Source: Astropecten irregularis
Lineage: Eukaryota; Echinodermata; Asteroidea; Paxillosida; Astropectinidae
Length of the DNA: 64,000 nt
Assembly: GCA_963971285.1 (NCBI GenBank)
Contig: OZ020262.1
Coordinates: forward strand, 4,280,082-4,344,081
Direction of reading: 5' to 3'
Shown: in pieces, positions 7,067 to 45,575 of the stretch
How positions within the stretch are numbered: the first letter of the stretch is position 1
How the letters are laid out: the number at the start of each line of letters is the position of its first letter
Position numbers and translations under genes: made by a program
Notes under the pieces: model-generated
Databases searched by the model: none
Told to the model about the DNA's origin: nothing
The model's input: only the letters and a program-made list of their open reading frames with translations

Positions 7067-7345
7067 GTGCCCATGATCATTGCCTTTGTAGCCCCTGCCC
7101 TGGTCATTGCCTTGGTGCCCCTTGTCATTGCCTTGGTCATTGCCTTGGTGGCCCTTGGTCATTGCCTTGGTGGCCCTGGTCATTGCCTTGGTGGCCCTTG
7201 GTCATTGCCTTGGTGGCCCTTGGTCATTGCCTTGGTGGCCCTGGTCATTGCCTTGGTGGCTTTGGTCATTGCCTTGGTGGCCCTTGGTCATTGCCTTGGT
7301 GGCCCTGGTCATTGCCTTGGTGGCTTTGGCCATTGCCTTGGTGTT
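7067..7345 (+). repeat. Minisatellite, 21-22-bp unit GGTCATTGCCTTGGTGGCC(C)TT
   Basis: About a dozen nearly identical units run head to tail, alternating 21 and 22 bases. All three forward frames stay open for about 90-120 codons because the unit lacks stop codons; these frames are repeat artefacts, not genes. It lies in a TBL1 intron. Confidence 0.92.
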
Positions 7346-11496: not shown

Positions 11497-11782
11497 ACCG
11501 CTGTGGCCTAGTGGTCTGGCGTGTTGAACTCAAAGTCTTGTAGTCAATCTACAGATTGTGGGTTCGAATCCAGCCATGGGCTAATGGTGCTTGTATCCTT
11601 GGGCAAGACGCTTTGTAACATATTGTTCCTCTTCACCCAGGTGTAAATGGGTACCTGGGAGGGTAGAGATGGCTTTGTGGTTTGATGTGCCCTCTGTGCG
11701 CTGAATACGGCAGCCAGGGTTGTATACTCCCCAGGGAGTTGAGATGGTTTCAGGAATGTAAATTATGGCCCGATGACCAGGG
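11497..11782 (+). mobile_element. tRNA-derived SINE, most complete copy
   Basis: Box A-like TGGCCTAGTGGTCTGGCG and box B-like GTGGGTTCGAATCC are followed by a body with CCTTGGGCAAGACGCTTTG and CACCCAGGTGTAAATGGGTA. Bodies of this kind occur in SINE families of many aquatic invertebrates. There is no tRNA acceptor stem. Its 3' end runs directly into a LINE fragment. Confidence 0.75.
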
Positions 11783-12292
11783 ATGAAATTTCTCCTTCCT
11801 AATAATGTTTTGCGTACACTTTATTGCACTCTCATACTACCATATCTCCAATATTGTAATGTCGTATGGGGAAACACATTCAGCGCCAATCTGAATAAGC
11901 TGAGTATTCTCCAAAAGAAAATTGTCCGTATTATTTCACATTCTCCATTTAGGGCCCATACAAGTCCTTTGTTTTGTAAACTTAAATTACTCAACTTAAA
12001 ATGTATCAACAAATACCAACAGTGTATCTTCATGTATAAACATATGAAAGGACTACTTCCTCTCTCATTCAATAAGTACTTTGAACTAAATCGTAATATT
12101 CATGGCCATAACACCAGGTCCTCTTCTAATTTTCATCTTCCCAAACACAGAACGACAGCCTTCCATCATAATATTTGTTTCTCTGGACCCTTAAATTGGA
12201 ATAAACTGCCTAATAGTATAAAAACTGCCCCTACGTTACCTATTTATAAACATAAACTAAAAGCTCACCTTCTCAACAACCACACTGTATAG
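11783..12292 (+). pseudogene. 5'-truncated non-LTR retrotransposon: C-terminal part of reverse transcriptase protein
   Basis: A 169-codon open stretch begins inside the protein. It starts near LRTLYCTLILPYLQYCN and VVWG, a segment located just C-terminal to the polymerase core of CR1/L2/Jockey-type LINEs. It continues through the thumb-like region (LQKKIVRII) and ends with the typical WNKLPNSIKT block before a stop. The endonuclease and catalytic reverse transcriptase motifs are missing, so it is a dead 5'-truncated insertion. The frame is intact over this length, which suggests a fairly young copy. Confidence 0.88.
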
Positions 12293-22091: not shown

Positions 22092-22779
22092 GTAGGCCTC
22101 TTGGAACTAAAGAGGTGCTAAGCACACTTAACTTGCTAAACAAAGGAAAGATTTGCTTAGCAAGCATGGGTTACTGGTTACTGACCAAATAACCAAAATC
22201 TGATACATTGTACATGTGATGCATACATTGTAAATGCTTGTGACTGTGACTTTTATGCTCAAAATACCACAATTCAGGGTAGCACTGGAACACATTCAAA
22301 CGGTCAAAAATCTGTATACAGATCCTGTGTACATTACAGCAATGTACATACTGTATATCCATTTAGGAATTTGCTTAGAAAAAAACAAGTTCCCTACATG
22401 GGCAATTCCAGCAAAAATGTTCACTAAAGTGAAAAAATGAAGTATGAAATTGCACTTCAGCTCTCAACGATTCTTGAAAAATAATGCTTGAATTTTCATT
22501 TTCCAAAAGATTAATCATTTTTATGACAAAATTTTATGTTTTTTTCGCAATTGAAAATGTTGTGTATTATTTTGCAGAAACACAGAAATGTGGCAATTTT
22601 TGAAGGTTTTTTGGTTCCTGTCTTTAAAGGAGACCAGAAATGCTCTAGAGGCCTCCTTCAACTTTAAAACAGCAGAGGACGGTATGACTAAAAGAAAAAT
22701 AATGGCAAAATTTTACATCAATTCTTACATTTCAAGCCACTAGTAGTCAAAGTTGCGCGATTTCTCTAACAAAATAAGT

Positions 22780-24985
22780 GTCATGTCCGTTACGTTTTTC
22801 ACTAAAAGTTTTCATTGCCAACAGGAAATTTGGATATAGGTGCTGCAAATTCATTTCCTATGTTAGAATCAAATGTCCTTATATGTGTAGCAACCATTTT
22901 TCCTTAGCACTTCTAGTTTTCTTACAAATAGCGTAACGGACATGACATTTTGCGTAACGGACATGACACCTCATAAAAGACAAGTGCCAAAAACAATATT
23001 TTGGCTCTGTGTAAAAGTCATTGAACATCAACATCTTCAGTAATGATGCTGCCTCATGGTTCAAAAACAAGTTTGTATTCAGATTCCCCTATGAGCTCTA
23101 TGAATCCTGGAACCTACATCTCCAATGGCAATTCTTTGCGAGATCACATGGAAAGAGAGCTATGGATGGAATAAAGCGTGTTATCACTAGTGCTGTGGTC
23201 AGTCAAAGTCACATTGTGAATGATGCAATTTCACTTACTCAGACAGCTAATTATAATGCATAAAAAGTATGCAAAAGGTTCTACCCTGAGGAAGATACAT
23301 TGCAGTGTTTGTCATCAAGCACAATCTTGATGCTGCATGTACATGTATGGGATGATGTTTGTCCATTGAAAGGTACATAGCATGCGCATTGGTTGCACCC
23401 AGTTAGTAGCAAAAATGTGCAGTTTAAGCCCTATTCATAAGCTGAAGAGAGTAGAAAACTAGTACACCACTTTGTCAAGCCTTGTGAAATGATGTGAAAG
23501 GGAACAAGGCATCACAGCTGATGATGATGAGCCACAACTAACCCCCTCATGCTGCCATCTCCTCTCCAGCAGTACAAAGAGGAAATCTTGTTCGAATTGA
23601 ACTTAGTACAAAGAAAAAGTGAAAATACTTTGTCTCCCAGGTGACTAACTAACTACAAGAGGATGGATGTGATGTAGAATTTCTGAGAAGACAAGCTAGG
23701 GGGCTCATACAGTCAACTCAAGAGGAGGAAGCTTTTCTTGAAAATGATCAAGCACTTGGTGGATGTTTTTATATTATCCGATATTAGAAAACAGAGCACA
23801 CTTCTACTTGGAGGATGACATTGATTCTGAATGAATGAGTTTACCAGTAAAACAAGCATGCAATTTGCTTCTCTGAAGGTTATTACCCATGTTAATTTAA
23901 AATTAAAATGACACTGGTTTTATAATCCTGTCTCATCAAGCATTTGATTAATCTTTCTGCAAAACAGAGATGAATAATTTTCATGAAATTGTATTCAGGA
24001 CCCAGGCTAGGTACATGTGAACGTTTCTTTGTCTCAAATTTTAAAATGTGACCTTCTTAGCTCTATGTAGGCCCCCATTGGTTGCACTCTGAAACATTTT
24101 ATTCCATTATATTCCATGTTCTACTGTTTTTTTTGTGATATCACTGAAACTCAAAATGAATTTAAGGTGCACGTTATTCATAACATACTGTGCAGTTAGA
24201 TTTTTTTTAAGTAAAGAATTGGAGATATAATGGGGTGTCATGTCCGTTACGCCAATGTTTGTCAAATATGAAGCCATTAAGTAAAAAATCACCAAATTAC
24301 CAACTAATCATGTATTTTGTGTTGGCATGGTGGGCGATAGCAAGAGAAATAATTCATGAACAGGACCCATGGAATGAAGAAGCAATTTTTTTCAAGATTT
24401 TTTTGTTTTGTTCATAATGATGAAAAAATAGCAACTCTGAAATTTCACAAAGATATGAGATATTACAGAATACCAGTTTTAAATTGTGTCCCAGTCTTCT
24501 AACATTGATATAAATACAAAATATCTGCCATAAACCTTAAAGGAAGAAAATTATAGAAGTTTACAAAAAGTGGACAAAAGTGTCATGTCCGTTACGTTGA
24601 AAGTGTCATGTCCGTTACGCTGCTTTTTGAGCTGGCAAAAAAGATTGGAATCAAAACTGTTTAAAAAAACTGTATTTATGATAAGAACATGGCCTTATGG
24701 TTCAAACCAAATCAAAATTAGGTGCATTAACTCTAACAATTCACAGGAAATTGCATAACAAAAAGCAGGTTAAAAAGCCTTGTCCATTTGGTGTCATGTC
24801 CGTTACGGTCACAAGAAGTGTATTTTCTCTACAACCGTTCAATGAAATCACATGAATTTTACTACATATGTCACTGATAGTCAAATGTGTCTGATAAGCC
24901 TAATTAAAATTGTTTGCAAACTGCCAATCCTTCTTTGTGATCCTCTGAATAAGGCAAAAACTGTGTGATTGTCATGTCCGTTACG
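22780..24985. repeat. Eight copies of GTCATGTCCGTTACG inside the 2.6-kb transposon
   Basis: Exact copies: plus strand at 22780-22794, 24237-24251, 24582-24596, 24605-24619, 24793-24807 and 24971-24985; minus strand at 22932-22946 and 22953-22967. Two close pairs have start spacings of 21 and 23 bp, about two helical turns. Interspersed subterminal motifs of this kind are usually transposase binding sites, as known for En/Spm and several hAT elements. Here that role is inferred. Confidence 0.93.
22995..23835 (+). pseudogene. Degenerate transposase of the 2.6-kb element
   Basis: At 23039-23263 the frame gives SNDAASWFKNKFVF, then WQFFARSHGKRAMDG. This resembles the F-F-A-x-SHGKG-x-x-DG block found in a widespread group of animal transposon proteins. 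The second glycine of SHGKG and the GG after DG are altered. Further on, another frame with stops gives VEFLRRQ (about 23675) and FYLEDDIDSE (about 23805-23835), like the C-terminal block of the same proteins. Several stop codons and frameshifts make it non-functional. The family match is from memory of the motif and was not searched. Confidence 0.62.
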
Positions 24986-25001
24986 CTGGAATTGCCCACA
25001 T

Positions 25002-27339: not shown

Positions 27340-27665
27340 ATAAACAACATTGACTGAAGCGAGATTTGAACCTGCAACCCCTGGAATAAAGTACCGGTGC
27401 TCTACCAACTGAGCTATCCAGCCCTTTGTTAGCACTGTCCCAAACTCTTAACAACCTCACTTTTTTGCTTTTTTTCCATTCAAAAAGCATGAACAACATT
27501 CACTTAAGTGAGATAAGGTACCAGTGCTCTACCAACAGTGCTATCCAGTACTACATTGGCAGTTTCCCAAAATCTAGATGACTTTTGTTTGTTTGCCAGT
27601 CAGAAGCCATGAAACCACTCACACACCGCTTCATCCCAAGGATCATTTTAGAAGCAAGCAACATA
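27340..27665 (-). mobile_element. tRNA-derived SINE (minus strand) with two tRNA-like heads
   Basis: On the minus strand, GGCTGGATAGCTCAGTTGG and TAGAGC (box A) and GCAGGTTCAAATCTC (box B) lie at about 27425-27360. A second, broken box A-like copy is at about 27545-27500. The shared body CAGTCAGAAGCCATGAAACC and CACACACCGC links it to the copy at 40840-41095. The anticodon arm does not close into a standard tRNA, and no matching acceptor stem is present. Confidence 0.7.
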
Positions 27666-27931: not shown

Positions 27932-28273
27932 GTATGTGGATCTGTTTGCGGAACCACCATGTAAGAATCGTTCGTACTTTCGCACTTCTATTTCGTTCGC
28001 ACTTCTCGCAATTAAGGTCTCAACGTTTCGACTAGCCTGCTCTATTCCTTATCGGGGTCTCTGAGTCTTGATCAAGGACTCCTGATGAGGACTAGAGCAG
28101 ACTAGTCGAAACATTGAGACCTTAATTGCGAGAAGTGCGTCAGGGTCTCCTGATGAGGACTAGAGCATACTAGTCGAAACGTTGAGACCTTAATTGCGAG
28201 AAGTGCGAACGAAATAGAAGTGCGAAAGTACAAACGATTCTAACATGGTGTTTCTGCAAACCGATCCACATAC
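27932..28273. repeat. Long inverted repeat built from the hammerhead-like unit
   Basis: The left arm starts GTATGTGGATCTGTTTGCGG and the right arm ends CCGATCCACATAC. Both contain TTCGCACTTCTATTTCGTTC or its complement. The centre has extra units, so the CTGATGAG...CGAAAC module occurs twice on the plus strand (28090 and 28150) and once, damaged, on the minus strand (about 28060-28020). Confidence 0.85.
28144..28189 (+). ncRNA. Hammerhead-ribozyme-like motif (type I, minimal stem III)
   Basis: In order: GGTCTC (28144-28149), CTGATGA (28150-28156), one extra G, GACTAG (28158-28163), a six-base loop, CTAGTC (28170-28175), GAAA (28176-28179), CGTT, then GAGACC. GGTCTC pairs perfectly with GAGACC (stem I) and GACTAG with CTAGTC (stem II). 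GAAACGTT supplies the core GAAA, a two-base self-complementary CG for a dimeric stem III, and a GUU cleavage triplet. The extra G between CTGATGA and stem II departs from the consensus and may weaken or abolish cleavage. Hammerheads with very short stem III are known from Penelope-like retroelements. Activity here is inference. Confidence 0.5.
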
Positions 28274-38371: not shown

Positions 38372-38512
38372 AGTATTCCCCGGACAACTGTACATGGTCA
38401 TAACCGTGTAAATATGTCCCCGGACAACGGCACATGGCCACAACCGTGTAAATGTGTCCCCGGACAACGGTACGTGGCCACAACTGTGTACATGTGTCCG
38501 GTCGGACACATT
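38372..38512 (+). repeat. 40-bp tandem repeat (CCCCGGACAACGG units)
   Basis: Three full units and a partial one, each with TGTCCCCGGACAACGGYAC and ATGGCCACAACCGTGTAA. The period is 40 bases, not a multiple of three, so the open frame across it is not under coding constraint. Confidence 0.88.
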
Positions 38513-45419: not shown

Positions 45420-45575
45420 CTTGCCCTCCACCGACGAGGATGAGCACTTTATACTCAGTGCTTGTGAGAGCACGTGAAAAAATCACACGCTGGCGTAGGT
45501 GGGATTCGTACCCACGACCTCCTGCTCACTAGTGCAGATGCCATACCGCTAGGCCACCGAGCTAGCTGGGGTCAG
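45420..45575 (-). mobile_element. tRNA-derived SINE (minus strand)
   Basis: On the minus strand, GGTGGCCTAGCGGTATGGC (box A) and GTGGGTACGAATCCCAC (box B with a closed T arm) are followed by GTGATTTTTTCACGTGC. The sequence beyond the T arm has no complement 5' of box A, so it is not an intact tRNA gene. Confidence 0.65.

Follow-up and report, generated by a model that had tools for sequence, protein, structure and literature searches.

The window, a 64,000-nucleotide stretch of Astropecten irregularis DNA analysed as a whole, contains a 2598-bp element at positions 22400-24997. It is bounded by identical 13-bp terminal inverted repeats (TIRs) and an exact ACAT target site duplication (TSD), and carries eight exact copies of the 15-mer GTCATGTCCGTTACG (Table 1). 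A search of the window at up to 3 mismatches returned 9 matches, the eight exact copies and one with 3 mismatches, against 0.93 expected from shuffles. The sequence-only reading had described one insertion with perfect TIRs, ACAT on both sides and an eightfold 15-mer without mismatch, subterminal on both sides, with pairs 21 and 23 bp apart and one copy abutting the right TIR; this description held in full. The left TIR, unlike the right, has no adjoining site. Below, W denotes the family of the window element, and distances are counted in bases from the element ends.

Table 1. Features of the window element (window positions)
Feature	Position	Strand	Remark
Left target site duplication ACAT	22396..22399		sequence
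Left TIR GGGCAATTCCAGC	22400..22412	+	exact pair with right TIR
Site 1	22780..22794	+	exact 15-mer; 381 bp from left end
Site 2	22932..22946	-	exact 15-mer; 533 bp from left end
Site 3	22953..22967	-	exact 15-mer; 554 bp from left end
Transposase catalytic-region remnant, 79 aa	23024..23260	+	aligns with intact relative L061
Site 4	24237..24251	+	exact 15-mer; 761 bp from right end
Site 5	24582..24596	+	exact 15-mer; 416 bp from right end
Site 6	24605..24619	+	exact 15-mer; 393 bp from right end
Site 7	24793..24807	+	exact 15-mer; 205 bp from right end
Site 8	24971..24985	+	exact 15-mer; 27 bp from right end, abuts TIR
Right TIR	24985..24997	-	exact pair with left TIR
Right target site duplication ACAT	24998..25001		sequence

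Elsewhere in the window, an open frame at 11777-12292 resembles, by eye, the end of a LINE reverse transcriptase. Two Rfam tRNA matches (27351-27423 and 45491-45563), neither of them called by ARAGORN, are perhaps tRNA-derived SINEs, and minisatellites lie at 7131-7343 (21/43-bp units), 28072-28207 (68-bp) and 38377-38499 (40-bp).

Copies and coding remnant of the W family

Searching the genome (475.7 Mb, 168 contigs) retrieved 878 copies of GTCATGTCCGTTACG (451 + 427) versus 2 + 0 for the reversed word, and 523 copies of the TIR 13-mer GGGCAATTCCAGC (254 + 269) versus 1 + 1 for the reversed control, showing that other copies with the same ends exist. Among the matches listed, all on contig C1, an exact TIR lies within 450 bp of 90 of 100 GTCATGTCCGTTACG words and within 2.6 kb of 96 of 100, which ties the 15-mer to such elements. 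Of the 19 TIR pairs found on C1, 12 span 417-418 bp, five span 210-359 bp and two span ~2.6 kb, so that the ~418-bp MITE outnumbers the 2.6-kb form among them. This MITE consists of the right ~209 bp and its near-inverted repeat (arms 84, 96 and 99% identical in three copies), that is, two right ends back to back with sites at ~26 and ~205.

At least 14 full-length W copies, including the window's own, were found by DNA search (40 of 381 first-look candidates scored), and divergence from the window copy is 0.2-4.8% in the other 13. A fifteenth (C27:2836849-2840034; loci L045 and L054) is split by ~600 bp; element bases 296-298 are present on either side of the gap, the pattern expected if a nested insertion had duplicated 3 bp. 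The TSD length, which the sequence-only reading had proposed to check, is 4 bp: an exact 4-bp duplication flanks 16 of the 20 W elements with both exact TIRs (10 of 14 full-length and 6 of 6 short), and 4 bp was the longest duplication matched in the 14 full-length copies when lengths of 2-10 were tested. With common ends, many copies and no functional transposase, W is a non-autonomous, MITE-forming family.

The coding remnant at 23024-23251 aligns with residues 450-529 of the intact relative L061. The window copy keeps the Asp497 region. In all 14 W copies an Asn stands opposite Asp456 of L061; one stop is common to 10 of the 14 copies and another is present in 4. The simplest reading of these sequences is that the reading frame of a W master copy was dead before the copies spread. 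The earlier claim of a non-autonomous element mobilised in trans is supported. The intact autonomous copy whose search had been proposed with that claim was not found for W in the assembly, either by protein search or by a scan of the fetched loci, divergent copies included, so that the pairing of GTCATGTCCGTTACG with a protein rests on analogy. The remnant (~80 aa) gave nothing usable in Pfam or PDB; the one DUF508 match was sub-threshold and lay in an unrelated 62-aa frame.

Site conservation was then counted over the aligned copies. Across the 14 full-length copies, sites were intact in 103 of 112 cases, and 12 of 1680 cells were changed in sites versus 631 of 34118 elsewhere (Fisher p 2e-4, cells taken as independent). 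The difference persisted at CpG cells (8/448 versus 23/336; Fisher p 6e-4, cells again taken as independent), and resampled 15-bp windows gave a weaker p of 0.03. In 18 MITE arms, 6 of 510 site cells and 192 of 2908 background cells were changed (blast rows <100 bp omitted), a count biased by the 12 arms from loci fetched via the exact word; the other 6, retrieved through overall similarity, gave 2/165 versus 48/934 (p 0.02). In 10 aligned stretches from nine more divergent loci the counts were 21/448 versus 511/5481, with blast rows <200 bp omitted along with L051 and L054, which belong to copies that were split or had been counted before. The sites are thus more conserved than the sequence around them, but much of their identity in the 2.6-kb copies reflects recent origin, and identity among W copies is expected because all descend from one ancestor. 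The contrast that the sequence-only reading drew between an exact motif and a decayed coding background thus stands for the sites, but not for decay in place, the frame having been inherited dead.

Relatives and their end arrays

In a protein search with the remnant, the best non-W matches were four relatives with open frames, each sharing 38-42% identity with it. With the L061 transposase as query, 64 of 290 candidates were scored and at least 63 matches were obtained in the genome, many of them within long open frames. All 10 aligned relatives carry D380, D456 and D497 (L061 numbering; in DF, DG and HGKGxxD), and nine aligned transposase relatives have six invariant cysteines, pointing to a DDD-type transposase with a putative fold and catalytic role. 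The L061 transposase matched no Pfam family at E<=1 and nothing in PDB, and AlphaFold models built without an alignment were useless (mean pLDDT 32 and 36). Transposase frames are open in L061 (691 aa), L064, C18 (758 aa; its protein was shortened near the C-terminus as aligned, leaving its end distances unaffected) and L101 (690 aa), and broken in L063 and L065. L101 is contig JAAEPJ010000558.1 from outside the genome, titled a bacterial MAG and probably eukaryotic host contamination of the MAG bin; it is the one confirmed of 22 candidate stretches matching the transposase pattern in outside genome contigs. Among viral contigs, 49 stretches matched that pattern and none was confirmed, and 23 stretches with one GTCATGTCCGTTACG match each and no array were taken as chance.

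Six relatives with at least one end found carry words of their own at nearly the W distances (Table 2). Over W and these six, right-end sites lie at ~26, ~195-206, ~383-404 and ~404-426 bp and left-end sites at ~361-381, ~520-533 and ~542-567 bp, L064 and L101 departing by 8-20 bp at some sites.

Table 2. Site distances from the element ends in W and six relatives (a trailing minus marks strand, as for sites 2 and 3 of Table 1)
Element	Left	Right	Word
W	381, 533-, 554-	761, 416, 393, 205, 27	GTCATGTCCGTTACG, 8/8 exact
L061	365, 530, 547, 567	406, 391, 204, 27	GTAACGTAACTAACC, eight exact
L063	363, 528, 544, 562	407, 392, 206, 27	GTAACGCGTGTTACC, 4/8 exact, others 1-2 mismatches
L065	361, 527, 544, 564	no end found; a pair of sites 15 bp from each other	GTAACGCGAGTTACC, 5/6 exact
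L064	end not reached; four sites 165, 22, 21 bp apart	426, 404, 206, 26	GTCACACACGTAACC, 7/8 exact
C18	182-, 366, 533-, 547	594, 572, 416, 394, 205, 40, 26-	TGTCCGTCCCTCAC, 10/11 exact
L101	365, 520-, 542, 556	404, 383, 195, 26	GTACGTCCAACAC, 3/8 exact, others 1-2 mismatches

The same positions are thus occupied by different words in related families. When the seven words were hand-aligned as 15-mers, A at position 13 and C at position 14 were common to all seven, and pairwise agreement ranged from 5 to 14 of 15. The L101 array was not reproduced in any of 20 shuffles. The words of L061, L064 and C18 have 44, 56 and 196 genome copies, respectively, versus 1, 2 and 1 for their controls. Judged from match positions alone, several shorter loci with the L061 or L064 word keep spacings of 165, 15, 187, 177 or 22, 198, 180, and a second copy of the C18 element on C16 has the same spacings. 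TIRs of 13 bp in W and about 11-14 bp in L061 (GGGCAATTCC), L063 (one mismatch) and C18 have sequences common to most families; the TSD is ATAT in L061 and L063 and TAAA in C18, and none was found at the L101 element ends.

Seven further relatives (L074, L076, L077, the 876-aa frame on C11, C2, C1:1351 and C15) showed no word in a W-type layout in the fetched flanks. Nor did they show a clear TIR pair in a weak test, whose duplication flag was negative in both controls too and whose six listed rows for the C18 control lacked the true TIR; because no pair was seen, they may be host genes or relics. Three of them, C2, C1:1351 and C15, had been taken as fresh relatives for a blind test of the array, and none had the layout: C1:1351 carries short repeats of another kind, in three copies at intervals of 38 and 36 bp, and C2 and C15 lie inside longer inverted repeats. 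For L075, positions were predicted beforehand and the prediction came half true, with three exact words at intervals of 20 and 175 bp and a TTGCCC end 192 bp past the last, as predicted, whereas the fourth site was absent and no left end was found in the fetched DNA.

Two further observations concern kin of the DDD transposase. At C3:403351-427175, seven similar decayed relatives recur every ~3.84 kb, so that part of a transposon has become an array resembling a satellite. Open frames of 740-948 aa at C11:20172623, C14:9343273, C19:16901423 and C27:1464359 and in L071, L072, L076 and L077 are candidates for domesticated genes, no clear TIR pair or array having been seen in C11, L076 and L077.

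Origin of the shared positions

The agreement in position was assessed by a placement test in which the reference (L061) and the tolerances were chosen after seeing the data, and which omits the W site at 761, L063 and L065. At the right end, sites of W, L064, C18 and L101 fell within 2 bp of the reference in 10 of 16 cases, within 10 bp in 15 and within 13 bp in all 16, and each total was obtained in 0 of 100000 random placements, with the TIR-adjacent site included or not. At the left end, sites of W, C18 and L101 fell within 3 bp in 5 of 12 cases (3/100000), within 10 bp in 8 (1/100000) and within 16 bp in 11 (0/100000).

Shared positions could reflect plain descent, in which short sites survive in homologous end DNA and spacing is not selected. 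Right-end spacers do align between L061 and L063 (z 5.5) and weakly between L063 and L064 (3.3; -0.2 for L061-L064), left-end spacers give z of -0.8 to 4.2 with some weak alignments, and most families have TIR sequences in common. However, the right-end spacers of W and C18 do not align with those of any other family compared (z from -1.3 to 1.6, in a rough test of 60 shuffles per pair that kept base composition alone, with no L101 spacers among the pairs), and yet the ~205-bp and ~393-bp sites differ by no more than 3 bp among W, L061, L063 and C18, L064 and L101 being 8-13 bp off at some. Unselected spacers would be expected to gain indels that shift the sites, and descent alone appears unlikely.

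Use by the element of host-factor sites, for transcription or chromatin, is less likely again. In L061 the left array precedes the transposase gene, a possible place for a promoter, and the words of L063 and L065 are near-palindromes, like many host factor sites; but one factor needs no private words, whereas families in one genome carry different words at the same positions, and the MITEs keep the right-end sites though they are too short for a gene. That the eight words are leftovers of ordinary duplications in one master copy, carried passively by copies whose common ancestry makes identity expected, is hardly credible, since the similarity around the sites is too short for duplicates of longer segments (the longest word-bearing pair reported spans 27 nt with 85% identity, or 26 nt with 92%) and in the MITEs the sites have changed less than the adjoining sequence.

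Superfamily, proposed mechanism and meaning

Several known systems resemble W in part. CACTA (En/Spm) elements have family-specific short words in both subterminal regions, bound by an element protein, and W too repeats family-specific words in both regions; CACTA words are irregular in number and place, and the elements have CACTA/G ends and a 3-bp duplication. The W ends GGGCAATTCC and the 4-bp duplication do not fit CACTA. Elements of the hAT and P groups make an 8-bp target duplication, which the 4 bp of W likewise does not fit. The ends of Tn7 and phage Mu carry asymmetric sets of 3-4 transposase sites per end at fixed distances, closer together than in W. In hAT elements (Ac, Hermes, Herves) subterminal repeats are bound by several transposase subunits, as may be so in W; the L061 transposase, without any Pfam match at E<=1, sets it apart from hAT. 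The Hermes octamer contacts the left end via several BED domains, according to PMC10368747.

The closest fit is Sola. A DDD transposase and 4-bp TSD are described for Sola (PMC10741241), and 12-21-bp TIRs with AWWT/ATAT-type TSDs for Sola2 (PMC3627910); W, L061, L063 and C18 have a 4-bp, mostly AT-rich TSD and short TIRs, and the transposases of the relatives have three conserved Asp. W and its relatives are thus likely Sola-like, probably Sola2, a placement made from DDD, TSD and TIRs against published descriptions, with no Pfam or PDB match for L061. No mention of a private-word array at fixed positions was found in the passages of PMC3627910 and PMC10741241 consulted, and a literature search returned nothing explaining GTCATGTCCGTTACG and nothing joining Sola transposons with subterminal binding sites. 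The sequence-only reading knew of no described family with this word; the word did remain without a literature match, but the superfamily is most likely Sola.

The reading we favour, at a probability of about 0.8, is that W is a non-autonomous Sola-like element, recently amplified in trans, with a fixed end scaffold of transposase-binding words. Internal deletion and decay of a Sola-like (DDD) cut-and-paste element would have produced the window element, and transposase supplied in trans would have amplified W recently. The eight 15-mers would be binding sites of W's own transposase, on a scaffold with right sites ~26, 200, 390 and 410 bp inside and left sites at ~365, 530 and 550, none beside the left TIR. 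Several transposase subunits, in a number equally conjectural, may bind this scaffold at once and pair the ends. The right end may be the stronger, because the commonest short derivative seen, the ~418-bp MITE, consists of two right ends.

The relatives suggest that related elements keep the binding-site geometry while the word that is read changes, the word presumably following the DNA-binding domain of the transposase. The array thus behaves, as far as sequence comparison goes, like the cooperative transposase-binding array proposed earlier, but the word itself is not the conserved thing, because relatives replace it and keep the positions. The best reading is a transposase-encoded end array whose geometry is fixed and whose word drifts with the protein. 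We give even odds to the stronger proposal that this DDD group reads its ends by a rigid asymmetric ruler of ~8 sites, the metric (26/200/390/410; 365/530/550) being kept down to ~25-29% protein identity and in the outside element as the word changes with the transposase. If so, all sites would switch specificity in concert, rendering families mutually orthogonal with their architecture unaltered.

On the surface W is an ordinary non-autonomous family, and its interest is the fixed metric with a changing word in its relatives. Word and spacing combined could also serve to find and annotate elements of this kind, even in families that have lost their transposase. The right-right MITE suggests which end suffices for movement, and the ~170-200-bp spacings raise the question whether the paired-end complex involves looping or assembles on a nucleosome scale. 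Matched transposase-site pairs from one genome constitute a natural experiment in which a multi-site DNA-protein interface changes its letters and keeps its geometry.
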